A stretch of DNA of 44,925 bases from a bacterium (lineage in GTDB: Bacteria > Patescibacteriota > Minisyncoccia > JAHIHE01), in contig JAUYBG010000022.1 of NCBI GenBank assembly GCA_030693205.1, forward strand, positions 1 through 44,925. Direction: 5' to 3'. The position numbers and the translations under genes were made by a program. Below the pieces are notes generated by a model. The model was not told the origin of the DNA, did no database searches, and saw nothing but the letters and a program-made list of their open reading frames with translations. Below, piece by piece: positions 24,187-39,740 of this stretch; position 1 is the first letter of the stretch, and every line of letters begins with the position of its first letter.

Positions 24187-24370
24187 GTCATTGCGAGGAG
24201 CTTGGGCGGTTGCGAGGCTTAAGCCGAAGCAAACCTGTCGAATTTCAGAAAGTCGCTTACCAAATTAGATGAACGAGATTCCTCGCTTCGCTCGGAACAG
24301 GCTCCGCAATCTATAGTCGAGACTTGAGATTGCCGCACTCTCCGCCAATCGGCGGATCGCTCGCAATGAC
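24187..24370 (+). repeat. Full palindromic repeat with GTCATTGCGAG / CTCGCAATGAC ends
   Basis: Terminal GTCATTGCGAG (24187-24197) and CTCGCAATGAC (24360-24370) frame a 184-bp element with internal palindromes such as CCGCCAATCGGCGG. It lies in the 330-bp gap after the kinase gene and contains no gene. The same ends define the element inside the U32 gene at 42385. Confidence 0.85.
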
Positions 24371-24426
24371 AGAAAATGGCTATCTCGTAATTCGCGATAA
24401 TTAAATAAATTTTAAACACACAAAAT

Positions 24427-24503
24427 CCGTTAGAAATATATAAGATATTGATTTTTAGCGGGGCAGTGTAAAAAATAAACAATATGAAAATTTCCGGCGG
24501 GTT
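24427..24503 (+). promoter_or_regulatory. Three-segment leader (A, B, A') over the start of the 24484 gene, copy 1
   Basis: A: CCGTTAGAAAT (24427-24437). B: ATTTTTAGCGGGG (24451-24463), able to pair with A through G.U wobbles. A': ATTTCCGGCGGGTT (24490-24503), inside the first codons, also able to pair with A but less well. B ends 20 nt before the ATG. No ordinary ribosome binding site is seen. Copies 2 and 3 are at 24893 and 39131. Confidence 0.6.
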
Positions 24504-24882
24504 GAAAAAAAACAAAACGGTAGTGGTAGTTGTGGAGGACGAGCCGTCTTTGCTGATGGCGATAGATTTTAAGCTTAAAAAAATCGGCTATGAGGTATTT
24601 ACGGCCGAGACCGGGGAAAAAGGCTTGGAGTTAATAAAAGAAAAAAAACCGGCTTTGATCTGGGCGGATCTTCTTTTGCCGGGAATGAATGGCATAGAAT
24701 TGCTCAGAAAAATTAAAAAAGAGCCGGAGTTGAAAAAAATACCTTTTGTCATCGTCAGCGTTTCCGCCGGCCCGGATAAAATAAAAGAAGCTTTTTCTCT
24801 CGGAGCCACGGATTATATCGTAAAAAGCAATTATCACATTGATGAAATAATAGAAAGAGTTATTAAGCTAATTAAAGTTTAA
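24484..24882 (+). CDS. Single-domain response regulator, repeat-derived N-terminus
   Basis: A 132-residue receiver protein: acidic pocket VVEDE (16-20), phospho-acceptor Asp62 in IWADLLLPGMNG, Ser/Thr position in VIVSVSAGP and Lys in YIVKSNYH. The receiver fold starts only at about residue 11; the first residues MKISGGLKKN are encoded by segment A' of the leader repeat and are shared with the products at 24950 and 39192. Asp62 is preceded by Trp-Ala instead of the usual hydrophobic pair, but the core is intact. It is probably phosphorylated by the kinase at 22030. Confidence 0.92.
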   Translation: MKISGGLKKNKTVVVVVEDEPSLLMAIDFKLKKIGYEVFTAETGEKGLELIKEKKPALIWADLLLPGMNGIELLRKIKKEPELKKIPFVIVSVSAGPDKIKEAFSLGATDYIVKSNYHIDEIIERVIKLIKV

Positions 24883-24892
24883 AAATATTTAA

Positions 24893-24969
24893 CCCGTTAG
24901 AAATACGAAAATCATTGATTTTTAATGGGGCAGCGTAAAAACAAACAATATGAAAATTTCTAACGGGTT
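24893..24969 (+). promoter_or_regulatory. Three-segment leader (A, B, A') over the start of the 24950 gene, copy 2
   Basis: A: CCCGTTAGAAAT (24893-24904). B: ATTTTTAATGGGG (24918-24930). A': ATTTCTAACGGGTT (24956-24969), a perfect complement of A within the coding start. The B to ATG distance is 19 nt. Differences between copies in B mostly keep pairing as G.U. Confidence 0.65.
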
Positions 24970-25378
24970 GGAACAAAATAACACAAATCAAAATAAAAGC
25001 GGCAAGATCGGGAAGGTCATATTATTGATCGAGGATGATGCTTTGCTGGTTAAGGCCTATGAGGCGAAGTTTAAAAAGGAGGGATTGAACGTCTGGATCA
25101 TAATGAATGGAACCGAGGCGATCAAGAGCCTGGAAAAAGATCCGCCTTCTTTGGTGCTTCTGGATCTAATGCTTCCCGGAGCCAGCGGTTTTGATGTGTT
25201 AAGAGCGATAAAAAATAATGAAAAATGGAAAAATATTCCGGTGGTTGTTTTGACGAACTTGGGGCAAAATCAGGATATTGAAAGGATAAAAGAGATCGGA
25301 GAGGTCAAGGAATATATTATAAAAGCGAATATGAAAATAAGCGATATAATTGAAAAGATCAAGAAATATTTAGCATAG
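24950..25378 (+). CDS. Single-domain response regulator, repeat-derived N-terminus
   Basis: A 142-residue receiver: LLIEDD (25-30), Asp72 in VLLDLMLPGASG, VVVLTNLGQ with the Thr switch residue, and YIIKAN with Lys. The first 20 residues (MKISNGLEQNNTNQNKSGKI) are an Asn-rich extension of which MKISNGL comes from the leader repeat. The core is more like the 12100 receiver (LLIEDD, KAYE, LTNLGQ) than like its neighbour at 24484, so the two adjacent receivers are not a recent tandem duplication. Both could be served by the 22030 kinase. Confidence 0.92.
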   Translation: MKISNGLEQNNTNQNKSGKIGKVILLIEDDALLVKAYEAKFKKEGLNVWIIMNGTEAIKSLEKDPPSLVLLDLMLPGASGFDVLRAIKNNEKWKNIPVVVLTNLGQNQDIERIKEIGEVKEYIIKANMKISDIIEKIKKYLA

Positions 25379-25417
25379 ATTATTATTTTTTTAAATGAAC
25401 TTTAGTATTGTTTTTTT

Positions 25418-25462
25418 GTCATTGCGAGAATCCGCCGGCTGGCGGAGACGAAGCAATCTCAG
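25418..25462 (+). repeat. Half copy of the GTCATTGCGAG palindromic element
   Basis: GTCATTGCGAGAATCCGCCG then GCTGGCGGAGACGAAGCAAT and CTCAG. It matches the left part of the elements at 24187 and 42385 but lacks the right end. Confidence 0.8.
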
Positions 25463-25498
25463 AAAAGGGCTATTTTGTAATTTAAAGAAAATAGAATT

Positions 25499-26488
25499 AT
25501 GTCGAAAAACAAGGAGGAATCGCAAAAAATCGAAAAGATGCACCAAAAGCAAAAAAGTGCTATAATGGCATTAATTGCTTTGGCGTTTATTTTGGCCGGA
25601 GCGAATCTTTGGACATTTTTTTATTATGTTCCGAATAAAAATAACGAGAGCGATCTCGCGGGAAAATTAAACGCCGGCAAATATAATTTTCTTGATCCGG
25701 CCAGAGGAATTTACGACAAGAAAGACTTAATAGTCAATATTCAGCCGCTTCGCGATTATCTGGGTGATAAATACGAAGCTGACCCGAATATCTCTGTTTA
25801 TTTTGAATATCTGCCCACCGGCGCGAATATTTCTGTAAGCAAAGATGCGGAATTTTATCCGGCAAGTTTGCTGAAAGTTCCGATAGCGATGGCGGCGGCA
25901 AAAAAGATCGATAAAGGGGAATGGAGATGGGATAATAAATTGGTTTTAATGGCAACCGATAAAGATGATAAATTCGGAGATTTATACAATAAACCGACTG
26001 GTTCGGTTTTTACCATAGAAGAATTAGCCAGGCGTTCTTTGATTGATTCGGACAATACGGCGCATTTCATTCTTTTGCGCAATATGGAACCTTCCGAAAT
26101 AAATGAAGTATATGCTCATATGGGGCTTGACGGTTTTTTGGAAACCGACGGGAGCATTAGCGCAAAGCGTTATTCTGTCATATTGCGCGCGCTTTACAAC
26201 TCTTCTTATTTGTCAGAAGCGAACTCGCAAAAAATTATTTCTTTTTTATCCGAAGAGCCTTTCAGGGAATATCTAGGAAGCGGCTTTCCGGAGAATATTG
26301 TTTTCGCCCATAAAATAGGGATGAATATAGACAAGAAAGTTTACATAGATTCAGGTATAATATACTTTGACAGCAGACCGTATATTTTAGTAGTAATGAC
26401 AAAATCAAAAACCGAGCAAGAGGCGAAAGAGGTTATGAAAGACATTTCGGAAAAAGTTTTTAATTATGTAAAAGAATATAAAGAGTAA
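25499..26488 (+). CDS. Class A beta-lactamase-fold serine hydrolase, membrane-anchored
   Basis: A 329-residue protein with an N-terminal membrane helix (about 20-43) and an extracellular penicillin-recognising domain. The three motifs are visible: SLLK with Ser123 and Lys126, SDN (184-186, in LIDSDNTAHF), and KIG (272-274) in place of KTG. It could be a beta-lactamase or a D,D-peptidase-like hydrolase; the Ile in the third motif and the lack of an evident Glu166 loop make classical resistance uncertain. It ends 17 bp before the giant protein gene, so cell-envelope remodelling near the surface protein is a reasonable inference. Confidence 0.85.
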   Translation: MSKNKEESQKIEKMHQKQKSAIMALIALAFILAGANLWTFFYYVPNKNNESDLAGKLNAGKYNFLDPARGIYDKKDLIVNIQPLRDYLGDKYEADPNISVYFEYLPTGANISVSKDAEFYPASLLKVPIAMAAAKKIDKGEWRWDNKLVLMATDKDDKFGDLYNKPTGSVFTIEELARRSLIDSDNTAHFILLRNMEPSEINEVYAHMGLDGFLETDGSISAKRYSVILRALYNSSYLSEANSQKIISFLSEEPFREYLGSGFPENIVFAHKIGMNIDKKVYIDSGIIYFDSRPYILVVMTKSKTEQEAKEVMKDISEKVFNYVKEYKE

Positions 26489-26505
26489 TTCTAAATATTT
26501 TATTA

Positions 26506-29500
26506 ATGATTAAAAGATTTTTAAAAATATTCAAAAATATTTTTATATTTCTGGTTATCACAGGGGTGGTTTTTTCCAATATCCCTTTTTATGCTTTGAC
26601 AGAGTTAGTCGATTCTTATGAAAAAACCAGCGGCATTGTGGATAAAGTTTGGCTATTGCAAAACGAACATCAGTCCAGAGTGGTTGATAATTTTTCATCG
26701 CTTCGCAATTTGGCGGAAAAGATGAAAGTGCGTGAAGCGCGAGCGGCAGTATCCGTTCGCAATGTGGGAGCATATGTGAGCGGCACAGCTAACTTAACGC
26801 CCGTTATTCCTGCTACCGCGGTCGCGGGTGATATGATGCTTTTGGCCTACGGCACAAAACCGTATAATGACGCCCCCACAATTAATCAAGGATGGATAAG
26901 TATCGGTTCCGCAACAGACGGCACAGTAGCGGCCGGCGTTGACGTCGGTTCAATGCAAACGAGTATTTACTATAAAGAGCATACGGGGTCAGAAACAAAT
27001 CCGACAATTACCAATGGTACAAACAATGTTTCCGGAGCTGCAATTATCGTATTTCAAAAAGGAGCGAGCGAAACATGGGAAACTCCCGTTGGCGCGGGCG
27101 GCGGAGACGCTACGGCGGGAACGGGATTTTCCGTTACCGCTTCCGCTAACCCGGGAATAACTTTGGGAGATATGCTCGTGGGTTATGCCGCTATCCGCTC
27201 TGATGCCGGCGCGCAATCGGCAATCGGTATTACCGCAACCGGATTGACGGTTGGAGCGTTCACGGAATACCCCGCATCAGATTTAATAACGACATCGGGC
27301 GGGGATATGGCGATGTCCGGCGGTTACCACTTGGTTACTGCAGGCACAGCTTCTGCCGCTCCGGTCTATGCCTCTACTTTGGCGGCTGCGCATACGGGTT
27401 CGGCTTTTATAGTGAGATTGCGAGCAACAACGCCGGCTGATACCACCCCTCCGACTCCAAACCCGATGACTTTTGCCACGCCGCCGGCAAACTTCAGCGT
27501 TAGTCAAATAGATATGACGGCGACCACGGCTACTGATGCGACTACGCCGCCAGTCAGTTATTTTTTCACTCTTGATAATTCTATTTGTGCCGCCAATGCC
27601 GGCACAGGCGGCACTTCCAGCGCGTGGCAGGCAGGAACTGCTTATAGCGATACTTTGCTTCAGCCGAACCAATGCTATGGCTATACGGTAAAAGCTCGCG
27701 ATTCGGCCGGCACCCCGAATGAAACTACCGCTTCCGGAATTTCTTCAGCTTATACTTCGGCTAATGTGCCGGGCACGCCGACTTTAAGCGGAGCAACGGT
27801 GTCAACATTGAATTTAACTAATGCCGAAAATAGCAACCCTGCTGCCAACCCGACAACCAACTTCGCCGTGCAAGTGGTTACCACTACACCCAATGATGCT
27901 ACTTGGATTAATCAATGGGTAAATGCCACTGGCAATCCTTCGGCCACGGCAGTTTGGTTAACTGATGCGCAATTGGACGCTTTGGTTTTACAAGGATTGC
28001 AAGGAAGTACTTTATATGGAGTTAAAGTAAAAGCACGAAACCAAGATACTGACGAAACCGCCTTGAGCGCGGAAGGGCAGGGGACGACATCGGCGCCTAC
28101 GCCGATAGTAACAACCACCACTACCGGCACGCAGACTGTTAATATTGATGCCGGCGCGACCGGACAATATCTTGGCGGCGCTTGGCGTTTCCAGCAAAAT
28201 TCCGGTTCAGCTGATACAATTACGGCTTTGACAATTTCCGATACAGGTACGATAAACGCTAATCTCAATGCTTCTAATGCGACACTTAGATATTCGACTG
28301 CTAATGCCGGCACTTGTTCTTACGCCGGCACGGAAACCATCGCTAAAACAGGTGTGTCTTTTGATGCTTCGGATAAAGCGGCGTTTACCGCTTTGACTTC
28401 CAGTATTCCTTTGACAATAAGCCCGAATTATACCTGTGTATATTTAATAATCGATGCGGGTGCCAATGCGGTGGGCGGAAATACGATTGAACCGCAAATT
28501 ACAGCCGCGGCTGATTTCACTCTTTCCGGCGGTTCAACCAAAGCCGGCACTTATCCGGTGGCGCTTGGAGGCATTACCACCGTTCGTCCTAATGTCACTG
28601 ATGCTACTGATTCGGCTTTGGCTGACGGCGGTAGAAATGGGGAAACGTTTACCATTACCGGCACCGGTTTTGGCACGGTTTGCGGATCAATTTCCGTGCA
28701 AGTGGCTGGCTTAGCTTTGACTTGCAACAGCGCGAACAATACGACTATTTCCGCGACTGTGCCATCAGCTCAAGTGACCACATTCGGCGGCACTGCCGCT
28801 AACGGTTTGCTGGTGACTGTGGGCGGCACGGCTGATGACGCGAGACTGACATATTATGTTTATCCGAATATTACTTCTGTTTCCGCAACTGCGACTGATG
28901 CGGCGCGAGAATTGGAAAGTATTACCTTGAACGGTACGCGATTTGATACGAATGCCAATCCCGGAACTGTTTATTTTACCGGCGGTTTTGGCTCGGTTGC
29001 GGCGTCAGTTACCACCTGGGGAGATACGGGCGTGATTGTCACTGTACCGGCGGCAATCGCCGATAATATTTACACCGGCGACATTACTTTAACTCGTGCG
29101 GCCGCTACCGGTTCAAAAACCGATTTGGCTTACGGCTCCAACACTTTTAGGATTCTGCCGAAAATCGCTTCCACTGCTCCAGTCAATCTTAAAGGCGGAC
29201 GAGGAGATACTATTTCAATCACCGGCGACCATCTTTGCCAATCCGGTGTTTGCCCTTCAGTATTCAGCGCGGCTAATAGTGTTAATTTTACCAGTGGATC
29301 AGTGACAAGCGGTTCTTCCACTTGGACCGACACTTCCATTCCTTCGATTGTAATTCCGGGCACGGCAACCGATGGAAATTTAAATATTACTTCCAATACT
29401 ACTTATACTTCCAACAATTTAACCTATGATATTAAATTCGCGCCGACTACACCGACCAATGGCGTGCCTGCCGGGCAATCAAGTATTGCTCTTAATCCGA

Positions 29501-32500
29501 CTATTAACAGTTCAGCATTTTCCGATGGTACTGACGCTGATACTCATCTTGATTCCGAATGGCAGATAGACGAAGAAGGGACATTTGTTACCCCTGAATG
29601 GAGTGAAACATTATCTAGCGCCAATGTTTCCGTTGTTGTAAATAACACGAACGGAGCATTTGCCGGACTTCTGGCCGGCCAAACTTCTCTTGTTTGCGGT
29701 AAAACATATTCTTTCAGGGAGAGGCATAAAGATAACGGCGGCGTAACTTCCCAGGAATGGTCAGGATGGGCAACCGCTTCCACGTTCAATACTATTTCCT
29801 GCGGACCGGATGCGACTTCGGTAAGTTATCAGGTCGGCGGCGATGGAGGGCGAAGCGGATACAGCGCTACTATAACAGGCGCCGGTTTTGGCACAGCGGC
29901 AGGCGGCAGTCGGGCAAATTGCGCGGGCGGCGCCGGCACCGGTTGCGTGAGATTTGTCGTCGGCGGTAATGCCACCGTGGCTGACGCTGATGTTACGGCA
30001 TGGACGGATACCTCTATCAGCTTTACTGTTAATTCTGCTCTTGCTTCTGACGGAGGCGCGCTGGCTTTGCAAGTAGTCGCCGCCGGCGTATCAGACGGCT
30101 CGCCGTTGAACTTTTATATTTATCCGACCGTCTCAAGCTATACCGCTACATTCGCCGATGGTGGTTATCAGGACGGCACGGTCACGATAAATGGCGATCA
30201 TCTCGGTTCATCCGGCGCGACGACAAATATTTCTTTTAATGGCACAAATCCCGCGAGCGTTGGCGTTTGGAATTCAACATCCATTAGCACGGTGGATACG
30301 CCGGATGCGGGTACTGATTCCGGCACGATCACTGTGACTCGAGCCAGCGATTCCAAAGCGTCAAACGCCTCGTCTGCTTTTTATATCTATCCGCAGGTTA
30401 CGGGAATTTCCGCCGCTACTTTTGCTGACGGCGGTTATCAGGATGGCACTTTTACTTTAAGCGGTAATCACTTTGGTGCCGGCGGCGTTGCAGCGAATAT
30501 TTCTATTAACGGTGTGGCTCCTTCTTCCATAGGAACTTGGGCAGTGGGCTCGGTCACTACGGTTGATATTCCCAATACTGGCACGGATTCAGGTGTGATC
30601 ACTTTGACCAATCCCGGCACTTCCAAAACTTCCAATAATTCAGCCGCATTTTATATTTATCCGCAGATTTCGAGCTATACCGCTTCCAAAGGAGATGGTG
30701 ATGTTCAGACTGCCACGATTACGATTTCCGGCAATCACTTTGGCGCCGGCGGCACGGGAGCCAATATTTCCGTCAACGGCGTGGCTCCTTCCTCTGTCGG
30801 AGTTTGGGGTGTGGGTTCGGTCACCGCGGTTGATATTCCCAATACCGGTACGGATTCAGGCGTGATCACTTTGACCAATCCCGGCACTTCCAAAACTTCC
30901 AATAACTCATCAACATTCTATATCTATCCGCAAGTCACTTCTATTTCCAATTGTGAAACTTTGGCGGCAGATGCCGCGCGTGAATACAGCGCTTCTGACG
31001 CCGCGTGTCCGGTAAGCGGACTTAAAGACGGACAGATCCATGTTAACGGCAATCACTTCGGCACGCCGGCCGGAGCGAATCCCTTGACTATTTTGGGTGT
31101 GGATACTTCCGGCTATACTTCGTGGACAACTACATTAGTAAGCACGGCGCAAGTGCCGGTTGCTATCGTTAACTCCACTTACATCGGCGACATTGTCATT
31201 AAAAGAAGCGATAACAAAACTCATGCTTATTACGGCGGAAATGTTTTCCGCATTCTGCCCAGGATCGCTTCCACTACTCCGGTTAATCTCAAAGGCGGCG
31301 GAGGCGATACCGGAGTGAGCATTGCGGGCGACCATCTTTGTCAGTCAGGCACTTGTCCGACTTTATTCAGCGCGGCCAATAGTGTTAATTTTATCGGCGG
31401 GTCAGTGACTTCCGGCTCTTCCACTTGGACCGATACATCTATTCCTTCAATTGTAATTCCCGGCACGGCAACGGATGGCGCTTTAAACATTACTTCCAAC
31501 ACTACCTATACTTCTAATAATTTAACTTATGATATTAAGTTCGCGCCAGCTACTCCGACCAATGGCGTGCCGGCCGGTCAATCAGGTGTGACTTTTAATC
31601 CGACGATCAACAGCTCGGCATTTTCCGACGGCACTGACGGCGACACTCATCTTGATTCTGAATGGCAGATTGACGAGGAAGGGACGTTTGTTACTCCTGA
31701 ATGGAGTGAAACATTATCCAGCGCCAATATCTCGGTAACGGTAAATAATACCAATGGAACATTTGCCGGACTTTTAGCCGGACAGACGGCTCTCGCTTGC
31801 AGTAAGACCTATTCTTTCCGAGAACGGCACAAAGACAATGGCGGAGTAACTTCCCAGGAATGGTCAGGGTGGGCAACCGCTTCCACGTTCAATACTGTTG
31901 CTTGCGGACCGAACGCGACTTCAATTTCCAATTCAACGGAAGGCACGCTTACCGACGGCGGCAGGATCAGCCAGACAATTGTTATTACCGGCACTGATTT
32001 TATCGGTGTTACAGCCGGAAATCGCGCTACTTGCGCGGGCGGCGCCGGCACCGGTTGTGTGAAGATCGGCGGCACTGGCGGACAGATCATTGCTGACGCA
32101 AAAGTGACTGCCTGGGGCGCCACCTCAATTACTATTCAATTATCTTTGACCGATCTGACTACGACTTATGGCGGCGCGACGACGAATGGTCTAATGGTCT
32201 ATGTTGCCGGCGTTTCCGATTCCGACGGCCTGACGTTTTATATTTATCCCGATATCACTTCTCTGACCGCGCCGCTGGGCGCAAATACCGGCGCCAGAGA
32301 ATACGCGTCTGGCGATACCGATGGAGTTTTCACTATTATCGGAAATAAATTCGGCACCGGACCGACCAGCGGTTCGGCCGTGATCGTCGGCGGGACAGTT
32401 GCGACTTTTGTGGCTGATGGCACTTGTGATGCCGCGGACGGCTGGGCGGAAACCTGTATAAAAGTTCAAGTACCGACAAGCATTTCCGACAGCACTGATT

Positions 32501-34866
32501 CCGGTTACGCGATCGTCACTCAAGGCGCCGGCACAAGCAATAAGGTTACTAATTCAACCGATGCGGAAAGCGCGATAAATATTTGGCCGAGAGTGACGGG
32601 TATTTCCGCCGCTACTCAAGCCGATGGCGGATATCAGAACGGAACATTTACTTTGAATGGCAGTCATTTTGGCGCCAGCGCCGGCTCTATTTTGGTTAAC
32701 GGGCAAACACAAGACGGTACGCCGACCTGGGGCGCGGCTTCAATTACCGGCGTCGGCATTCCCAATGCCGGCACGGATTCCGGCAGCATTGTTTTGACAA
32801 AATCCGACGCAAAAACTTCAAATTCCTGGTCAACATTTTATATCTATCCGCAGATCACGGGATTCACCGCTGCCAAAGGAGACGGCGATATACAGACAGG
32901 CACGATCACGATTTCGGGAAATCATTTTGGCACCAGCGGCGGCAACGCGCAGCTCTTGATCAATACCATTGCTCCGTCAGCGACCACTCCGACTTGGGGC
33001 GCAGTTTCGATCACTAATGTGGATATTCCAAACACTGGCGCTAATTCCGGCGTGGTCAAGGTGACAAATCCGCAGACTACCAAACAATCAAATGATTCTT
33101 CCGCTTTCTATATTTATCCGCAGATCACTTCTGTTTCCAATTGCGAGACTTTGTCGGGAGATACCGCGCGTGAATATAATGCCACTGATGCCGCCTGTCC
33201 GATAAGCGGATTAAAAGACGGTGAAATTCATATTAATGGCAATCACTTCGGTGCTACGGCGGGAACGCTCACTATTCTTGGCACAAGCGCTCCAACTTAT
33301 GTTTCTTGGGGAGCGAGCTTGATTTCCACCTTGCAAGTTCCGATCGCTATCGCGGACGATTCTTATACGGGCAGTATCGCGCTTACGCGTTCCGATGCCA
33401 CAACAAGCTCGTATACCGGTTTCAGGATTGCGCCGAGGATCATCTCTCTTAGCCCCAGCGATGGCGCGGAAAGTACCAGCGTAACGGTTATTGGAAATCA
33501 TCTCTGCCAAGCCGGTTCTGCTAATTGCCCGAACGCTTTTTCTTACACCACGCCGATCTCCAATGTTTTGTTCGGAACGACTAATGCTTTAGCTCAGACG
33601 CCTTGGGGTTGGGAAAATGGCGATAGTTCAGCAACAGGTGTTAAAGTTAAAGTGCCAGCCGGCGCGGGAATCGTAGCGGTAAAAGTGATTAGCGGCGTTG
33701 GCGGTTTTGATTACGAAAGCAATGCAAAAGATTTCAGTTATGTCTCTACCGCGCCGACTGACCCGACCAATTTGAGGCAATTTAAACCGGATGGTGTGAC
33801 TCAAATTACCATTGGCGCCGGCGTCAATAGCAATAGCGTTATCTTAAAAGGCGACAGCACGGCTTTGATTTCGATCAATATGGTCTTGGAAGTTGAAGTT
33901 AAGCAAACTTACATACCATTTGACGGCGCGCCGACCGCTTTAAGCGCGGTTCAAGGACCTGGTACTGTTTTTAGCGATGTCGCGGTAACGGTTTCCGGAT
34001 TAACTGATGGACTATATCATTGGCGAGCTAGAGCTAAAAATTCCGGTACCAACGAAGTTTCCAACTGGATCTCTTTTGGCGGAAACGCCGACGGCGTAAC
34101 AGATTTTTATGTGGACACCACCGGTCCGGTGATTTCCAGCGTTGCCGAAACTGATGTTTCCGATATTCAGGCGACTATTATTTGGAATACCGACGGAAGC
34201 GCTACTCAGCAAGTGGCGTATGGCACAGTCTGTCCGACCGCTCAAGCCAGCGCGGCCGCGACATTTAGCGTTTTGGCCAACAAGCAACCGGAGTCGCCGG
34301 CCGGTTCAGGCACTTCGCATTCAGTGGTTTTATCAGGCCTTATTGCCAGCAAAGATTATTATTATATGGTTCGTTCGGCCGATGCTATTGGTAATTATAC
34401 TTATAATCCGTCCGTTGCTAATTCTTGCAATAATTTTACGACCACGGCGCCTCGAACCAGAGTAATGAAAACCTTGGAATTTTACATCGAACAATTGAAT
34501 ACCGGCGCTACCAGTTTCAATAAGACTTTCGATACGTTTATTTCCGAATCAAAGATCGATCGCTCCAATATATTTATAAAAAGCGTTATTATTGAAGTTT
34601 TCGGAATTTCAAAAAGCGGAACCGGCGATATCACGGTTATTGTTAATTTGAATAGCTCCGAGACATCTTATGTTTTGGCTGATCCGGGTGCCAATAGCAC
34701 TTTTTGGAAATTCGCTAAAAATGCCAGTTCTTTGAACTTCGATTGTGTATCTTGCACGGATAATTTCAGTGTTGATAATTCGCTTGTTGTCAGCGTGAGC
34801 GGCGCGACCAGCACTTCTTTGCTTGGCGCCAAAGCCATCATTACTTATTATTATGAACCGTTATAA
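26506..34866 (+). CDS. Giant secreted repeat protein with many IPT/TIG-like domains
   Basis: A 2786-residue protein. An N-terminal signal/anchor (about 8-31) precedes a conserved beta-rich domain (80-312), fibronectin III-like stretches near 313-515 (PPTPNPMTFATPPANFSVSQ), and a long series of IPT/TIG-like Ig folds from about 700 to 2440 marked by GNHFG, GDHLC or GTGFG turns and FYIYPQ linkers. A further fibronectin-like part (about 2530-2640) and a C-terminal domain (2649-2786) follow. Large blocks are duplicated (883-1110 with 1583-1802; 1300-1585 with 2030-2310). There is no LPxTG motif or C-terminal helix. It is probably an extended surface or adhesion protein; the partner is unknown. Confidence 0.9.
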   Translation: MIKRFLKIFKNIFIFLVITGVVFSNIPFYALTELVDSYEKTSGIVDKVWLLQNEHQSRVVDNFSSLRNLAEKMKVREARAAVSVRNVGAYVSGTANLTPVIPATAVAGDMMLLAYGTKPYNDAPTINQGWISIGSATDGTVAAGVDVGSMQTSIYYKEHTGSETNPTITNGTNNVSGAAIIVFQKGASETWETPVGAGGGDATAGTGFSVTASANPGITLGDMLVGYAAIRSDAGAQSAIGITATGLTVGAFTEYPASDLITTSGGDMAMSGGYHLVTAGTASAAPVYASTLAAAHTGSAFIVRLRATTPADTTPPTPNPMTFATPPANFSVSQIDMTATTATDATTPPVSYFFTLDNSICAANAGTGGTSSAWQAGTAYSDTLLQPNQCYGYTVKARDSAGTPNETTASGISSAYTSANVPGTPTLSGATVSTLNLTNAENSNPAANPTTNFAVQVVTTTPNDATWINQWVNATGNPSATAVWLTDAQLDALVLQGLQGSTLYGVKVKARNQDTDETALSAEGQGTTSAPTPIVTTTTTGTQTVNIDAGATGQYLGGAWRFQQNSGSADTITALTISDTGTINANLNASNATLRYSTANAGTCSYAGTETIAKTGVSFDASDKAAFTALTSSIPLTISPNYTCVYLIIDAGANAVGGNTIEPQITAAADFTLSGGSTKAGTYPVALGGITTVRPNVTDATDSALADGGRNGETFTITGTGFGTVCGSISVQVAGLALTCNSANNTTISATVPSAQVTTFGGTAANGLLVTVGGTADDARLTYYVYPNITSVSATATDAARELESITLNGTRFDTNANPGTVYFTGGFGSVAASVTTWGDTGVIVTVPAAIADNIYTGDITLTRAAATGSKTDLAYGSNTFRILPKIASTAPVNLKGGRGDTISITGDHLCQSGVCPSVFSAANSVNFTSGSVTSGSSTWTDTSIPSIVIPGTATDGNLNITSNTTYTSNNLTYDIKFAPTTPTNGVPAGQSSIALNPTINSSAFSDGTDADTHLDSEWQIDEEGTFVTPEWSETLSSANVSVVVNNTNGAFAGLLAGQTSLVCGKTYSFRERHKDNGGVTSQEWSGWATASTFNTISCGPDATSVSYQVGGDGGRSGYSATITGAGFGTAAGGSRANCAGGAGTGCVRFVVGGNATVADADVTAWTDTSISFTVNSALASDGGALALQVVAAGVSDGSPLNFYIYPTVSSYTATFADGGYQDGTVTINGDHLGSSGATTNISFNGTNPASVGVWNSTSISTVDTPDAGTDSGTITVTRASDSKASNASSAFYIYPQVTGISAATFADGGYQDGTFTLSGNHFGAGGVAANISINGVAPSSIGTWAVGSVTTVDIPNTGTDSGVITLTNPGTSKTSNNSAAFYIYPQISSYTASKGDGDVQTATITISGNHFGAGGTGANISVNGVAPSSVGVWGVGSVTAVDIPNTGTDSGVITLTNPGTSKTSNNSSTFYIYPQVTSISNCETLAADAAREYSASDAACPVSGLKDGQIHVNGNHFGTPAGANPLTILGVDTSGYTSWTTTLVSTAQVPVAIVNSTYIGDIVIKRSDNKTHAYYGGNVFRILPRIASTTPVNLKGGGGDTGVSIAGDHLCQSGTCPTLFSAANSVNFIGGSVTSGSSTWTDTSIPSIVIPGTATDGALNITSNTTYTSNNLTYDIKFAPATPTNGVPAGQSGVTFNPTINSSAFSDGTDGDTHLDSEWQIDEEGTFVTPEWSETLSSANISVTVNNTNGTFAGLLAGQTALACSKTYSFRERHKDNGGVTSQEWSGWATASTFNTVACGPNATSISNSTEGTLTDGGRISQTIVITGTDFIGVTAGNRATCAGGAGTGCVKIGGTGGQIIADAKVTAWGATSITIQLSLTDLTTTYGGATTNGLMVYVAGVSDSDGLTFYIYPDITSLTAPLGANTGAREYASGDTDGVFTIIGNKFGTGPTSGSAVIVGGTVATFVADGTCDAADGWAETCIKVQVPTSISDSTDSGYAIVTQGAGTSNKVTNSTDAESAINIWPRVTGISAATQADGGYQNGTFTLNGSHFGASAGSILVNGQTQDGTPTWGAASITGVGIPNAGTDSGSIVLTKSDAKTSNSWSTFYIYPQITGFTAAKGDGDIQTGTITISGNHFGTSGGNAQLLINTIAPSATTPTWGAVSITNVDIPNTGANSGVVKVTNPQTTKQSNDSSAFYIYPQITSVSNCETLSGDTAREYNATDAACPISGLKDGEIHINGNHFGATAGTLTILGTSAPTYVSWGASLISTLQVPIAIADDSYTGSIALTRSDATTSSYTGFRIAPRIISLSPSDGAESTSVTVIGNHLCQAGSANCPNAFSYTTPISNVLFGTTNALAQTPWGWENGDSSATGVKVKVPAGAGIVAVKVISGVGGFDYESNAKDFSYVSTAPTDPTNLRQFKPDGVTQITIGAGVNSNSVILKGDSTALISINMVLEVEVKQTYIPFDGAPTALSAVQGPGTVFSDVAVTVSGLTDGLYHWRARAKNSGTNEVSNWISFGGNADGVTDFYVDTTGPVISSVAETDVSDIQATIIWNTDGSATQQVAYGTVCPTAQASAAATFSVLANKQPESPAGSGTSHSVVLSGLIASKDYYYMVRSADAIGNYTYNPSVANSCNNFTTTAPRTRVMKTLEFYIEQLNTGATSFNKTFDTFISESKIDRSNIFIKSVIIEVFGISKSGTGDITVIVNLNSSETSYVLADPGANSTFWKFAKNASSLNFDCVSCTDNFSVDNSLVVSVSGATSTSLLGAKAIITYYYEPL
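29155..29832 (+). repeat. Internal duplication in the giant gene, copy 1 (pairs with 31255-31918)
   Basis: The DNA here encodes APVNLKGGRGD through EWSGWATASTFNTISCGP. A second copy at about 31255-31918 encodes TPVNLKGGGGD through EWSGWATASTFNTVACGP. Long stretches are identical or nearly so at the nucleotide level, for example around TCCCAGGAATGGTCAGG in both. Recent duplication or gene conversion is likely. Confidence 0.85.
31255..31918 (+). repeat. Internal duplication in the giant gene, copy 2
   Basis: Second copy of the block at 29155-29832. The flanking domains differ, so a multi-domain unit was copied as a piece. Another block, about 30400-31250, resembles 32590-33430 in the order ADGGYQ(D/N)G, GDGD(V/I)QT, SNCETL. 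Confidence 0.85.
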
Positions 34867-34936
34867 GCTGAAATTAAGAGCGTATCAATATTTATAAATT
34901 ATATTAATTTTTAACTTAAATCATTAAATAAAAAAT

Positions 34937-35623
34937 ATGAATCAAAAATCTTTAGTAATGATCTTAGTTGTTTTTATTGTTGTTATTTTGGCGGCGGCGG
35001 TCTATGTTGTTTCGCCGGAAATCTTTCAGGGTTTGAAAACAGGCGGCGGGGTTGTTAATTTACCGCCGGAAAAACCGAAAGTCATTGAAGAGAAGCTGGT
35101 TATTCCGGAAACTGAAAAAATAACCGGCGGAGAAGGGCGAACAGTCGATCAGGGGCCGGTAGAAGTGCCTCTGGTTCCTAAAACCGAATCTGAAAAAGTA
35201 GTGGTATCAAAAGCGGTCTTAACCGTGAAAGGAAGCTATGATCTGGCCGTTTTGGAAGCGAATAAATGGGCAAGCGACGCCAGTTTGATTTTTATCAAAT
35301 CTCTGGGCGCCGTGACTCTTGAAGGAAAATCCAGCCAGTGGCAATTGGCTTTTTCTTCCAAAACAAAATCGAGCAAAGGGTATGAAATAATTATTCAGGG
35401 AGACCAGATCGTTTCCAAAAAAGAGATCGATTCCGCGGCGAGCGGCGCCGATCTGCCAAGCGTATGGAGAGATTCGGGCGAGGTCATAATCTCTCTTCAG
35501 GAATTGCCGCAATTTTCGACTGCTACGGTTTCGACCATAAATTTATATTATAATACCGATGGCAAACTATGGAGATACGTCCTTTCAACTTCAAGAGGCA
35601 ACACCTCAATGTCGGCGGAATAA
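34937..35623 (+). CDS. Membrane-anchored hypothetical protein (PepSY-like C-terminus)
   Basis: A 228-residue protein with an N-terminal membrane helix (about 6-28), a Pro/Glu/Lys-rich linker (40-90), and an extracellular alpha/beta part. Residues 98-170 (VKGSYDLAVLEANKWASDAS, then SKTKSSKGYEIIIQGDQIVS) have a pattern like PepSY-type folds: helix with AxxxA, then antiparallel strands ending in GDQIVS. The assignment is by eye. It lies between the giant secreted protein and another secreted protein, and its 3' end overlaps the next gene by 55 bp in another frame. A role in folding or anchoring these large proteins is possible but not shown. Confidence 0.72.
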   Translation: MNQKSLVMILVVFIVVILAAAVYVVSPEIFQGLKTGGGVVNLPPEKPKVIEEKLVIPETEKITGGEGRTVDQGPVEVPLVPKTESEKVVVSKAVLTVKGSYDLAVLEANKWASDASLIFIKSLGAVTLEGKSSQWQLAFSSKTKSSKGYEIIIQGDQIVSKKEIDSAASGADLPSVWRDSGEVIISLQELPQFSTATVSTINLYYNTDGKLWRYVLSTSRGNTSMSAE

Positions 35624-36534
35624 TTTGTTTGTTTTTGTTTTTAACCGGTGTTTTGATAATTTCCAGCCGGATGGTTTTTGGTTTTGCTCCTGAAGAAAAA
35701 CAGCCTCCTTCGCACCAAACCAGGACTCTGAAGTTTTTTATTTTCCAGAATCCGGCAGTGATGGTAAACGGAAATTCTTCCACCGTTCCTTTTGATCTTT
35801 TTATCGGTGAAAAGGATCCGCAAATAAAAGACGCTTATATAGAAATTACCGGAGTGACGAACGGCGCGAACGATATCGCGGCCGATATCCGCGCCACTCA
35901 AGGGTCTGATTACGTTCAGTCTTTCGCCACCACCCGCGCCAAGTCTTTTAATCTCGATTCTTTCGGAAAACCGAATCATTTTAAGATTCTTTATACCGGC
36001 ATCGGTAATTCAACCGATACTTCGCTTTTATATTGCCTTGGGCAGATCATTCGGTCTCCCGGCACTTATCCTTTTGAATTTAAAATTGATGTTTCGGGAG
36101 CCGATGTTTCGGCCGTGCATGCCAGAATGGTTATCACTTACAAGTTTACCCCGCCGACAGCCGGCACTTTGCCGGTTTTAGGTTATATCATATCTTCCAC
36201 GGTGGATACGGGAATAACCAAAGGCGCGGCTTATAATTCTTTGACCTGGAAAGGAAATCTTAACGGCGGTTCTATCGGGCAGGTGGGTTTGCAAATTGCC
36301 ACTTCGGATTCAAGCATTGGCCCCTGGGTATTTGAAGGGCCGGATTGCGTTTCCGGCACAAGCTATATCGCCGATGTCGATACCCCGATTCCCATAGAGA
36401 CAGATTGCGCCTTGAATCATAACAACAAGCGCTATTTTCGCTATAAAATCATAATTTGTTCCAGTAGCGATTGCGCTTCCAACGGATCAATTAATCCCCG
36501 GGTTGATGAAGTGGTGGTGAATTGGTCGCCATAG
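35569..36534 (+). CDS. Secreted protein sharing a domain with the giant protein C-terminus
   Basis: A 321-residue protein with a signal peptide or anchor (about 15-40), then a beta-rich domain (50-192) starting RTLKFFIFQNPAVMVNGNSS and ending VSAVHARMVITYKFTPP. The pattern follows the C-terminal domain of the giant protein (RTRVMKTLEFYIEQLN to AKAIITYYYEP): a strand, F-x-FI-x-E, IK-x-x-x-IE-x-x-G, DI, and a final ITY strand. A second part (200-321) has two Cys pairs. The start lies 55 bp inside the previous gene. The ATG gives a well-formed signal sequence; no better in-frame start was found. It is probably a surface partner of the giant protein. Confidence 0.75.
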   Translation: MEIRPFNFKRQHLNVGGIICLFLFLTGVLIISSRMVFGFAPEEKQPPSHQTRTLKFFIFQNPAVMVNGNSSTVPFDLFIGEKDPQIKDAYIEITGVTNGANDIAADIRATQGSDYVQSFATTRAKSFNLDSFGKPNHFKILYTGIGNSTDTSLLYCLGQIIRSPGTYPFEFKIDVSGADVSAVHARMVITYKFTPPTAGTLPVLGYIISSTVDTGITKGAAYNSLTWKGNLNGGSIGQVGLQIATSDSSIGPWVFEGPDCVSGTSYIADVDTPIPIETDCALNHNNKRYFRYKIIICSSSDCASNGSINPRVDEVVVNWSP

Positions 36535-36540
36535 GAGAAG

Positions 36541-36613
36541 ATTTAAGAAGTACGATTTACGATTTAAGAGCATTTTTTTATCGTAATTCATAAATCGTAA
36601 ATCATAAATCAAA
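36541..36613 (+). repeat. ATTTA-type inverted repeat upstream of the GspJ-like gene
   Basis: Left: ACGATTTACGATTTAAGA; right: CGTAATTCATAAATCGTAAA then TCATAAATC. The arms pair around a T-rich centre. Third copy of the type found at 15774 and 17080. Confidence 0.75.
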
Positions 36614-36630
36614 AAGTTGCGAAAAACGAT

Positions 36631-37155
36631 ATGGTATTTAATATTACTAAACAAAAGTTTGATGGAGGCTTTTCGCTATTGGAACTATTGATCTATATCG
36701 CCATCTTATCGGGTTTTTTGGTAGTGATCGTTAATCTTTTTTTTACGATTTCCACCAGTTCCACGCGCGAAGAGGTGCGCGTCGAAGTCAGGCAAAATTT
36801 GCGTTTTGCCAGCCAGAAGATAGTGGATGAGGTGCGTTCCGGGAAGGAGATCATTTCCGCGACTTTGGCGGACGGGGGATCGGGGAATATTTTGGATATT
36901 AAAATTGCCGATGAGACCACTACGAGATTCAGCGTCTCGAGTGGCGTTTTACGAAGAACGCAAAATTTCGGTTTGCCGGGAGAAATTACGGAAAACATTA
37001 CAACGGACCAGGTTACCGTCAGCATGTCGCCGGAAATTTTTAGTCGCGCGGGTAGCACTATTCAAATAAATCTCAAAATAGACTATAATGATAACGGAAG
37101 GGGAGATTATAAGTTTTTTGAAAGCGTCAAGACAACCGCGTCTTTGAGATTGTAA
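36631..37155 (+). CDS. GspJ/PilW-like pseudopilin
   Basis: A 174-residue prepilin. Leader MVFNITKQKFDGG, cut before FSLLELLIYIAILSGFLVVI, Glu at +5. The LLELLIYIAILS pattern and the following VEVRQNLRFASQKIVDEVRS helix match GspJ/PilW minor pilins. The head domain is beta-rich with LADGGSGNILDIKIAD. It opens the second pilus block, 5 bp before the PilX-like gene. Confidence 0.85.
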   Translation: MVFNITKQKFDGGFSLLELLIYIAILSGFLVVIVNLFFTISTSSTREEVRVEVRQNLRFASQKIVDEVRSGKEIISATLADGGSGNILDIKIADETTTRFSVSSGVLRRTQNFGLPGEITENITTDQVTVSMSPEIFSRAGSTIQINLKIDYNDNGRGDYKFFESVKTTASLRL

Positions 37156-37160
37156 TTAAG

Positions 37161-37613
37161 ATGTTTAAAAATAATAAAAAATATTGGGGAGAAAAAGGCG
37201 CCATGGCTCTGTCTTCGGTTTTGGCTCTGTCGATAATTTTATTGGCGCTGGGGCTGGCGATGGCATTTTCCGGATTTGTTCAAAGCGATATTACCTACAA
37301 TCAAGATAAAGCCGCTATCGCGTTTTATATCGCCGAAGCGGGAGCGAAGGATGCGATGCAGAAAGTCGTCAGAAATAAAAATTACAGCAACGCGGGTTAT
37401 GTTTTAAGCCTTACTACCGGTAGCGCGAATATTGTGGTCAGCAAAGACGTCCCAGCGGCGGAAAGAACGGAGATCTTGAGCACCGGCGCGGTGGGGGTGA
37501 ATACTAAAAAGATCAGAGTTGTTCTTAACACTGATACGGACAATGATAATAATGGAAAAGTAACGATTGTGTCTTGGGAAGAATGCCGGAAATCCGGCGC
37601 GTTATGCAATTAA
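37161..37613 (+). CDS. PilX/GspK-like minor pilus protein
   Basis: A 150-residue protein. The N-terminus EKGAMALSSVLALSIILLAL with KG|A cleavage and a long hydrophobic helix, followed by QDKAAIAFYIAEAGAKDAMQ, is the usual PilX pattern (helix with FYxAEAGxxxAxQ). The head is short and ends with two Cys (WEECRKSGALCN). PilX-type proteins join minor pilins at the filament tip. It lies between the GspJ-like gene and the PilM-PilN fusion, all on one strand with small gaps. Confidence 0.82.
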   Translation: MFKNNKKYWGEKGAMALSSVLALSIILLALGLAMAFSGFVQSDITYNQDKAAIAFYIAEAGAKDAMQKVVRNKNYSNAGYVLSLTTGSANIVVSKDVPAAERTEILSTGAVGVNTKKIRVVLNTDTDNDNNGKVTIVSWEECRKSGALCN

Positions 37614-37640
37614 ATTTTTACATAAGCATAAATTTTAAAA

Positions 37641-39116
37641 ATGGATTTTCTAAATCTTTTGATTCCCAAAGAAAAAATAGTCGGTATTGAAATAGGCAAT
37701 CGAAAGCTTAGGATGCTGGCTTTGGCCAAAGATAGTTTTGGCAATATTTCCGTTCAAGGAAAATCCGAAGTGGACATGGAAGAGGGCGTGATCGATCATG
37801 GCGCGGTGAAAGATGGAAAAAAACTAAGCGCCGCTTTGGCTAGTCTCAAAAAAACATTTAAACCCCGGAGCGCGCTGTCCGTGTTTGCGATCGTTACTGT
37901 TTCTCAAAATAATATTTATAGCGATATTTTGGAATTTCCAAAAAATTTAACGAATGAACAATTGATCGAAGCGATTAGTTTTAATGTTGCCAAGTCTTCG
38001 CCTTTGCCTTTGAGCGAATGCTATCTGGATTGGCAACTGATCGAAACCGGCAAGGTAAAAGACAAGATTTTGACCTATATTATTCCCAAAGGAATAGTAA
38101 ACGCCTATAAAAGCGCTTTGGAGGAGAATGGTTTCAGTCTTATCGCTTTGGAATCGACAACGCTCTCGATCGGCCGGGCGGCGGAAATAACCGGTGAACC
38201 GACTTTGTTTTTTTATTTGACGGACGAAGGCGTAACCAGCATGATTTATAGCGGTAATAATTCTTATTTCAGCCAGTTTGAATTTTGGCAGGAAGCTTCC
38301 GGCGGCGCGCCGATCAAAGATATTGGCGATCTTAGCAAAGTTTTGAAAACAAAAATCAAGAATTTGTCGTATTATTTTGAAAATCAGTACAATAAGGAAA
38401 AAATTAAAAAAGTTTTATTGATGAGTGAGGGTTTTGACGCGGATAAGATCATTGGAAAGATAGATTACAAAGATGTTTTGATCGAAAAAGCCAGTTCCGG
38501 CATTTCTTCGATAGATAATTATGACTGGATTCCCGTGGGAGGAGCGGCCAAGCGCGCTTTTATTCCCCGGAGCGAGGATACTATTATCAGCTTGCTGCCG
38601 GTTGGCACGGAAAGTCTTTACGAAACGCAAAAGATGACCTCTTTTGCCAACTCGATCTTGATCGTAGTGGCGACCATAATGTTGTTTTACATAGTGGCTT
38701 TTACGACTTCGCTATTTTTTATTTCTTATTTGGGAAAGGACTTAAGCCGGCAAATGGAAACCAGAAGCAACATGCAAATGCCCGCCGACTATTCCAAAAT
38801 TGACCAGGAAACCAAAGAATTCAATGGCTACGTCAGCGACTTGTTAAACGTTTCTTCCAAAACCAGCACTGATTACGGGGCTATAATGGGAAAGATCAGC
38901 AGTTTGAATTCTTCGGGAATAGCTTTGACAAGCATCAGTTTTGATAATATTTCAGGTGTGATCGCAATTTCCGGGGTTTCTTCATCCAGGGAAGACTTAA
39001 ACGCGTTTAAATTCCGATTAGCCAATTCTTCTTTTTTCAGTAACGTAAAATTTTCCGTGCAAAACATCGCTCAAAAAAGCAACATTCCTTTTAGTACAAG
39101 TTTTAATTTGAAATAG
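37641..39116 (+). CDS. PilM-PilN fusion, pilus alignment subcomplex
   Basis: A 491-residue protein. Residues 1-310 follow PilM, the FtsA/actin-like cytoplasmic ATPase fold: KIVGIEIGNRKLRMLAL, a helix with EFPKNLTNEQLIEAISFNVA, and GEPTLFFYLTDEGVTSMIYS. Residues 315-320 (ISLLPV) correspond to the INLLP-like motif at the start of PilN, which normally binds PilM. A membrane helix (336-362) and a PilN-like periplasmic part (363-491) with LNSSGIALTSISFDNISGVI follow. PilM and PilN are usually separate genes; here they are one chain. The PilO-like gene follows after 75 bp. Confidence 0.86.
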   Translation: MDFLNLLIPKEKIVGIEIGNRKLRMLALAKDSFGNISVQGKSEVDMEEGVIDHGAVKDGKKLSAALASLKKTFKPRSALSVFAIVTVSQNNIYSDILEFPKNLTNEQLIEAISFNVAKSSPLPLSECYLDWQLIETGKVKDKILTYIIPKGIVNAYKSALEENGFSLIALESTTLSIGRAAEITGEPTLFFYLTDEGVTSMIYSGNNSYFSQFEFWQEASGGAPIKDIGDLSKVLKTKIKNLSYYFENQYNKEKIKKVLLMSEGFDADKIIGKIDYKDVLIEKASSGISSIDNYDWIPVGGAAKRAFIPRSEDTIISLLPVGTESLYETQKMTSFANSILIVVATIMLFYIVAFTTSLFFISYLGKDLSRQMETRSNMQMPADYSKIDQETKEFNGYVSDLLNVSSKTSTDYGAIMGKISSLNSSGIALTSISFDNISGVIAISGVSSSREDLNAFKFRLANSSFFSNVKFSVQNIAQKSNIPFSTSFNLK

Positions 39117-39130
39117 CTTACAATATGAAA

Positions 39131-39211
39131 CCCGTTAGAAATAAATAAATAAATTATTTTTAACGAGGCAAGTAATAAAGAAAATATAAATATGGAAATT
39201 TCTAATGGGTT
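39131..39211 (+). promoter_or_regulatory. Three-segment leader (A, B, A') over the start of the PilO-like gene, copy 3
   Basis: A: CCCGTTAGAAAT (39131-39142). B: ATTTTTAACGAGG (39156-39168). A': ATTTCTAATGGGTT (39198-39211) in the first codons. B to ATG is 23 nt. It is the same arrangement as at 24427 and 24893, 14 kb away, before an unrelated gene. Confidence 0.65.
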
Positions 39212-39740
39212 GAAATTAAGTCAAATTGTAAAATTAATCATAACGATCTTTGTGATCATTGTCGCGGGCAGTGCGGGGTCTTTTGTATTAAAAAATAAAA
39301 TTGAAGCAAGCGGCAAGAATATTTATGAATCACGCAGTATGTTGAAGGTTTTGGAAAATCGAGATGAAAATTATTCTTTTCTTAAAACCGATTATCCTTT
39401 GGTGCGGGACGGGTTGCCGATTCTGAAAAAATCTTTGCCTAAAGAAGATGGCCTTGATAAAGTGGTTACGAGCCTGGACGCGCTGGCAAGTGAAACTAAT
39501 AATACCCAAAATTTAATTTTTGATTCTTCGGGGATCGCGCAGATCATCGGCGGAATGAGAAGCATTGATTTTTCGGCAAGCCTTGATGGCAATTTCGGAT
39601 CGTTTGAAAGTTATTTTAAAAAAATGCAAAGGCTTCCTTATTTCATTGAGATCGGAAGCGTTAGCATTAATAATGGCGCGGGAGTTTTTAACGACAATAG
39701 CCATTTAAGTTTTAAAGCCAAGCTTTACATTAAAAATTAA
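39192..39740 (+). CDS. PilO-like pilus assembly protein
   Basis: A 182-residue protein with one membrane helix (about 14-33), a coiled-coil region (35-65), and a small alpha/beta domain (75-182) with a PilO look: LPKEDGLDKVVTSLDALASE, then RSIDFSASLDGNFGSFESYF and KKMQRLPYFIEIGSVSINNG. PilO pairs with PilN around the pilus. Its first residues MEISNGLK are encoded by the leader repeat. It follows the PilM-PilN fusion, supporting the assignment. Confidence 0.84.
   Translation: MEISNGLKLSQIVKLIITIFVIIVAGSAGSFVLKNKIEASGKNIYESRSMLKVLENRDENYSFLKTDYPLVRDGLPILKKSLPKEDGLDKVVTSLDALASETNNTQNLIFDSSGIAQIIGGMRSIDFSASLDGNFGSFESYFKKMQRLPYFIEIGSVSINNGAGVFNDNSHLSFKAKLYIKN

Follow-up and report, generated by a model that had tools for sequence, protein, structure and literature searches.

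Rickettsia palindromic elements (RPEs) are palindromic sequences that lie in-frame in genes of unrelated function, to which they add a peptide (PMC10969869). Bacterial miniature inverted-repeat transposable elements (MITEs) are short and non-coding, with terminal inverted repeats, a fixed-length target duplication, many copies and several internal families under one set of ends, and the repetitive extragenic palindromes (REPs) and REPINs that go with REP-associated tyrosine transposases (RAYTs) are very short palindromes dispersed in high copy number. Here we describe a repeat that is like all three in these respects. It was found in a 44,925-nt stretch of DNA, the window (JAUYBG010000022.1 of assembly GCA_030693205.1), from a bacterium of the lineage Patescibacteriota; Minisyncoccia; JAHIHE01, whose genome comprises 1.0 Mb in 23 contigs. 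With its three mutually exclusive pairing partners A, B and A' and a short reading frame over A, it also resembles leader attenuators and translational coupling through short upstream frames.

An earlier note on the window had described three A-B-A' leaders over two receiver genes and a pilO-like gene, and we found the arrangement at all three positions with the A, B and A' strings as given. In our analysis A and A' prove to be terminal inverted repeats of 13 bp (XCCCGTTAGAnnn) at the ends of a small, non-autonomous mobile element. With a probability of about three in four, the leader is such an element, mobilised in trans, which lands at YNNR, accumulates in start codons and carries a B box and a spare start that keep the host gene translated.

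Ends, target duplication and spread of the element

In full, the unit reads X-CCCGTTAGA-nnn ... nnn-TCTAACGGG-X' and is flanked by a target duplication of 4 bp. Its boundaries were determined on 230 arm pairs, for which the core sequence was the sole selection criterion. The outermost base X is paired in 217 of them, compared with 129 after shuffling, and the three inner positions in 230, 220 and 219, compared with 213, 195 and 186; beyond these bases pairing falls to background, and the inner boundary is sharp. A and A' plus one outer base thus form a sharply bounded 13-bp palindrome with the target sequence repeated just outside, and hence a terminal inverted repeat. Changed ends are mostly symmetric (AGC, AAG, AGT, GAT, CAT, TAT, GTT), so that the palindrome as such is under maintenance or correction. 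This symmetry could stem from a hairpin substrate, RNA pairing or template-switch repair and alone is no proof of RNA function.

The flanks of 119 copies were compared with shuffled flanks. All four bases are identical in 66 copies (shuffled mean 10.6, maximum 20), and the agreement between left positions -5 to -2 and right positions +2 to +5 (82%, 72%, 71% and 84%) lies in one register. The target consensus is YNNR (TGAA/TTCA, TAAA/TTTA, CAAG, TTGA, TGGA, TGCG and others). A clear example, which also gives evidence of an empty site, is an intragenic insertion in rsmH of Nealsonbacteria. It reads TAAA-TCCCGTTAGAGAT ... ATCTCTAACGGGA-TAAA and forms an in-frame peptide, in place of which the solved RsmH of T. 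maritima has a 21-column gap in the alignment; other in-frame inserts lie in FtsI-like and MurF-like genes. At the level of sequence comparison, the many copies, many phyla and 4-bp target duplications show the element to be mobile, and the "mobile or shared" of the earlier note is thereby borne out.

A search with a covariance model, proposed in that note and here built on ten element copies, recovered eight further strong copies in the window genome, to which arm searches add several weaker ones, and matches in 21 of 54 related genomes, often many per genome. The exact 12-base arm (forward/reverse) occurs 27/25, 17/18 and 11/14 times in the Patescibacteria genomes G001, G049 and G035, 40/39 and 68/72 times in two Deltaproteobacteria and 23/20 times in an elusimicrobium, compared with 0-1 occurrences of a reversed-pattern control. 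Among the matches listed for the pattern CCCGTTAGAAAT-N40..70-ATTTCTAACGGG are Patescibacteria, Deltaproteobacteria, Omnitrophota, Elusimicrobia, Planctomycetota, WOR-3, KSB1 and Nitrospirota as well as two viral contigs; the element is dispersed through many groundwater bacteria. The host genes, named from their N-termini and not from a family search, have no common function. In the window genome they include genes for an EngB-like GTPase, a MurC-like protein, a PfkB-like kinase, a solute-binding protein and a YqeY-like protein (by inspection), and across genomes those for ribosomal protein L21-like, peptidyl-tRNA hydrolase-like, MurC-like, EngB-like and FtsI-like proteins, receivers and a pilus protein. 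The ends of two short contigs (G000:C4:19-108 and G000:C8:2884-2973) carry one and the same copy, which suggests that the repeat breaks the assembly.

Element sizes begin at 27 bp and continue with 38, 59, 66, 76, 93 and up to 275 bp, with loops of 3 to about 250 nt that belong to several unrelated families, while the ends are common to all. The 27-bp form, a 12-bp core stem with a three-base loop, has several copies in G001. Several hairpins of ~27 bp in this genome (L245-L251) are nearly identical, with the loop GCA/TGC in most and mostly matching 4-bp flanks (TTTG, CAAA, CTTG); they are possibly the smallest mobile units of the family. Another loop family of 90-110 nt adjoins TTGACA...TATAAT-like sequence away from start codons (L020 at G000:C6:73045-73166; L252 and L254 in G001). 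A prepilin-like gene carries at its N-terminus an element in which a related repeat, CCCCGTTAGAGATAAATCTCTAAACGGGGCTAACGGGG with the peptide NPVRDKSLNGANG, is nested (L244, 520-600 and 1475-1545).

Short palindromes in very many copies, whose stem variants are symmetric as if a hairpin were the substrate, recall repetitive extragenic palindromes and the Y1 (RAYT) transposase that moves them, and Y1 genes are indeed frequent in the deltaproteobacterial and elusimicrobial carriers. However, they were not found in the copy-rich Patescibacteria G001 and G035, no repeat borders the Y1_Tnp genes inspected, and 4 bp are duplicated here, whereas Y1 elements are not known to duplicate their target. We therefore regard this origin as very improbable. 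The DDE_Tnp_1 genes are likewise not flanked by the repeat. An IS1380/piggyBac-like mover, suggested by the CCC...TAGAAA ends, was rejected because PF13701 is absent from 74 genomes, and the long-range arm pairs considered as autonomous copies (L184, L194, L199, L244, L290, L291) enclose ordinary genes or nested elements and no transposase. A reading of GTTAGAA/TTCTAAC as an integron attC site was dismissed by reasoning, since neither the order of the core sites nor the 4-bp duplication fits. Its mover may act in trans and belong to a system that is present elsewhere or has been lost.

Placement in start codons

The 193 distinct elements yielded 135 scored gene-start associations. The right border is ATG or GTG in 72 of the 135, without exception in the phase of the gene (64/64 after deduplication). 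The restored start consists of the last base of the element and the duplicated TG, which places the insertion point at A^TGNN. Altogether 46 of 108 copies (~43%) lie in a start codon, where a target model of tolerated sites predicts about 1%. Start-codon placement and covariation, for which the earlier note had proposed to test, are both observed, the latter in the A-A' pairing of the 230 arm pairs.

These observations could also describe a purely selfish hairpin, whose enrichment in start codons would mean only that these sites are harmless and whose B box would be a relic of repeat duplication without a role in expression. The target duplication does preserve the start and, in ATGA overlaps, also the upstream stop codon, which the left duplicate retains. 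Copies lie mostly at gene starts and are depleted inside genes (12/105 compared with 47% of random placements), and B is also present in deltaproteobacterial copies away from starts. We nevertheless consider this explanation unlikely, because the start-codon share is ~40 times that predicted from intergenic plus start-codon targets (with target weights from the other copies, crude gene calls and a pattern search that favoured one loop-length class the exact factor is uncertain, its direction is not), and because in AT-rich elements B is concentrated in start copies and on the coding strand.

The left duplicate retains the old ATG, which now opens the peptide M(N/K/D/S)PVRN. This frame mostly stops inside the element and runs through in about a fifth of the cases, resulting in MNPVRN...ISNGV fusions. 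The M(N/K)PVRN...ISNGV N-termini would accordingly be insertion scars rather than protein features and may mislead the annotation of start sites; the M(K/E)IS(N/G)GL terminus that the earlier note saw written by the repeat is a by-product of the inserted right repeat. Three things had escaped that note: the duplicated target, the position of the insert within the start codon and the leftover start on the left that makes M(N/K)PVRN peptides. Its reading is supported in part. An internal in-frame ATG is present in 26 of 34 elements that end in G and restore GTG, compared with 4 of 30 that end in A and restore ATG (p = 3e-7), and the T-ended elements of the window genome give TTG and carry an internal ATG. 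This distribution of the spare ATG looks like an adaptation of the element to its habitat.

It is conceivable, and we put it forward tentatively, that the transposase-less hairpin, mobilised in trans, actively homes to start codons, possibly via the transcription-start bubble or near-leaderless start regions, and carries an evolved gene-rescue module of decoy B box and replacement start. If true, this would be a class of mobile elements adapted to occupy start codons. Targeting of leaderless promoters was not adopted as a general explanation: TATAAT-like hexamers 3-10 nt before the invaded ATG number 13 compared with 4.4 in shuffles (maximum 12), a modest excess that concerns some sites only. 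Targeting of stop codons was rejected as well, as there is only a small left-flank peak, mostly from ATGA overlaps, plus frames ending at a TAG inside the repeat.

The B box and a possible alternative pairing of A

The preferred reading, a trans-mobilised element that keeps its host gene translated, may be pictured as follows. Mobility, target, restored start, spare start and the orientation of B are shown by the sequences: insertion at YNNR duplicates 4 bp, and copies accumulate above all inside start codons (A^TGNN). The left duplicate keeps the original ATG, and the right duplicate together with the last element base restores an in-frame NTG, ATG for A-ended and GTG for G-ended elements, the latter usually with an in-frame ATG of their own inside the element. 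During transcription A would meet B first and form a short upstream hairpin, leaving A' and the start region single-stranded; a ribosome translating the M(N/K)PVRN frame would cover A with the same freeing effect. Were A still free when A' emerges, the long stem would clamp the new start and lower initiation. A start kept free by the B hairpin or the ribosome would explain why an insertion at this site is tolerated by the host gene; later, the B box and the spare start could come to serve regulation.

In deduplicated loops in gene orientation, pairing of A with the loop reaches a mean z of -1.46 relative to shuffled loops, that of A' only 0.03 (p = 6e-9), and the motif [AG][AG][CT]GGG is found in 83 of 193 loops compared with 22 in shuffles. 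B in start copies lies on the coding strand in 35 cases and on the opposite strand in 7 (p = 1.5e-5), and the base after B covaries with the outermost A base X (C with G, T with A; p = 0.01). In AT-rich elements, 54% of the start copies have a z below -2, compared with 16% of the non-start copies. Covariation between the alternative partners is strong for A-A' and moderate for A-B. The oriented second complement of A fits a decoy hairpin that would free A' and the start. The alternation of A between B and A' envisaged in the earlier note thus has statistical support from the oriented A-complement in the loop and the covariation of X with the end of B, while A:A' is usually far more stable. B-like boxes (AGCGGGGC) are also present in deltaproteobacterial 38-bp copies of the form CCCGTTAGAAAT-TCCAGCGGGGCATT-ATTTCTAACGGG away from starts (L298-L302 in G075 and G076), so that the role of B may predate gene rescue.

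The oriented B box covarying with A, the A-A' covariation and the placement at gene starts would also be expected of a dedicated cis-regulatory RNA switch, the reading of the earlier note: a riboswitch, thermometer or protein operator that responds to a signal and is common to many genes, its mobility being incidental. Such a switch is improbable in view of a loop that varies in both sequence and length, the many copies without B or away from gene starts, host genes without a common function and a 4-bp duplication that explains the placement to the base. In addition, no Rfam family matched above the gathering threshold, in line with the earlier note, which knew of no described family that fits.

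Several points weigh against the trans-mobilised element with its rescue function. The loci and transposase families searched yielded no transposase with these ends, and 27 bp is oddly small for a transposase substrate. The duplication is exact in only one of the three window copies, and mismatched flanks are common outside the window too, perhaps owing to recombination between copies. All evidence on the pairing of A, B and A' is computed, and the median energies are -19.5 kcal/mol for A:A' and -8.8 for A:B, so that a free start needs co-transcriptional folding or the help of a ribosome. The AT-rich start copies may be a single subfamily, which weakens their independence, and since B is inherited jointly with the internal ATG, selection on B is not isolated from it.

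Window copies and comparison with described systems

The features of the window are compiled in Table 1. The string CCGTTAGAAAT has, with one mismatch allowed, 6 matches in the window compared with 1.5 expected, a number reached in 0 of 100 shuffles, and the covariance model matches these three loci only (E 4e-15 to 6e-14).

Table 1. Element copies, B boxes and reading frames in the window
Feature	Position	Strand	Parts	Basis
Element copy 1, diverged, over first receiver gene	24425..24502	+	A 24426-24437, B 24451-24463, ATG 24484, A' 24490-24501	covariance model
B box of copy 1, complement of A	24451..24463	+	ATTTTTAGCGGGG	
First receiver-domain protein	24484..24882	+	start = internal element ATG 24484	
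Element copy 2, over second receiver gene	24892..24968	+	A 24893-24904, B 24918-24930, ATG 24950, A' 24956-24967	covariance model
B box of copy 2	24918..24930	+	ATTTTTAATGGGG	
Second receiver-domain protein	24950..25378	+	start = internal element ATG	
Element copy 3, over pilO-like gene	39130..39210	+	A 39131-39142, B 39156-39168, ATG 39192, A' 39198-39209	covariance model
Leftover original start read into copy 3	39125..39148	+	ATG AAA CCC GTT AGA AAT AAA TAA (MKPVRNK*)	
B box of copy 3	39156..39168	+	ATTTTTAACGAGG	
PilO-like gene	39192..39740	+	start = internal element ATG	

Folded alone, each leader pairs A with A' (z -3.0, -5.6 and -4.3). A:B comprises 12 bp with -11 to -14 kcal/mol, compared with -11 to -18 for A:A', and in copy 1 the values are -12.3 and -10.6, respectively. 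The window element has the ends A...T, and its right border consequently restores TTG. In all three copies the internal ATG lies 18 nt upstream of this in-frame TTG (24502-24504 and 24968-24970 in the first and second receiver gene). Copy 3 has the exact target duplication TGAA (39126-39129 and 39211-39214). The flanks of copy 1 are an inexact duplication, two transitions apart (CAAA 24421-24424, TGAA 24503-24506), and those of copy 2 do not match (TTTA 24888-24891, TGGA 24969-24972); given this divergence, the mobility of the two receiver copies is deduced from the element family. Prior to insertion, the first receiver would have begun M-K-K-N-K-T-V, and the pilO start, with 39125 joined to TGAAATTAAG at 39211, would have read ATGAAATTAAGTCAA (MKLSQIVKLI...), a plausible start. 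As the receiver domains start only at residues 14 and 24, the element-derived residues are not part of them.

The PilO-like gene lies directly 3' of a PilM/PilN fusion gene. Near the type IV pilus genes, a 2786-residue open frame (26506-34866) with several internal 240-300 nt repeats probably encodes a large surface protein. A second dispersed repeat of the type ...CGCTCGCAATGACA / GATTGC...GCGGAG... was observed at 24260-24377, 25415-25462 and 42378-42416; it is partly inverted (pair I1, 85% complementary over 39 nt) and also lies near an element copy elsewhere in the window genome (L027).

The literature searched contained no description of the sequence or of the MNPVRN peptide in this context, although absence there is no proof. 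As far as this literature and the libraries searched show, there is no earlier description of the concentration in start codons, of the start restored there, of the spare ATG and the B decoy or of a size as small as 27 bp. Repeated occupation of start codons without killing the gene would be an unusual solution to life in compact genomes.

Compared with REPs, REPINs and RAYTs, the element has direct 4-bp flanks instead of a fixed GTAG-type tag and no linked RAYT gene, and no copies flank a Y1 transposase gene at the loci inspected. Its in-frame cases in RsmH, FtsI-like and MurF-like genes are like RPEs; however, RPEs are ~150 bp long and lie mostly within open reading frames, whereas most copies of the element are shorter and lie at start codons, with 4 bp duplicated and a spare start present, and only 12 of 105 are inside genes. 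With MITEs it shares terminal inverted repeats (here 13 bp), a target duplication of fixed length (here 4 bp, YNNR) and dispersed copies in unrelated contexts. It differs from them in its location mostly at gene starts, with a large share exactly within the start codon, in sizes down to 27 bp, in one end set across many phyla and in that no parent insertion sequence was found in the loci and transposase families covered. Unlike leader attenuators, finally, the element has no conserved effector or gene class, and the whole leader arrived by insertion, which would represent a concrete route from a dispersed repeat to a family of RNA leaders.

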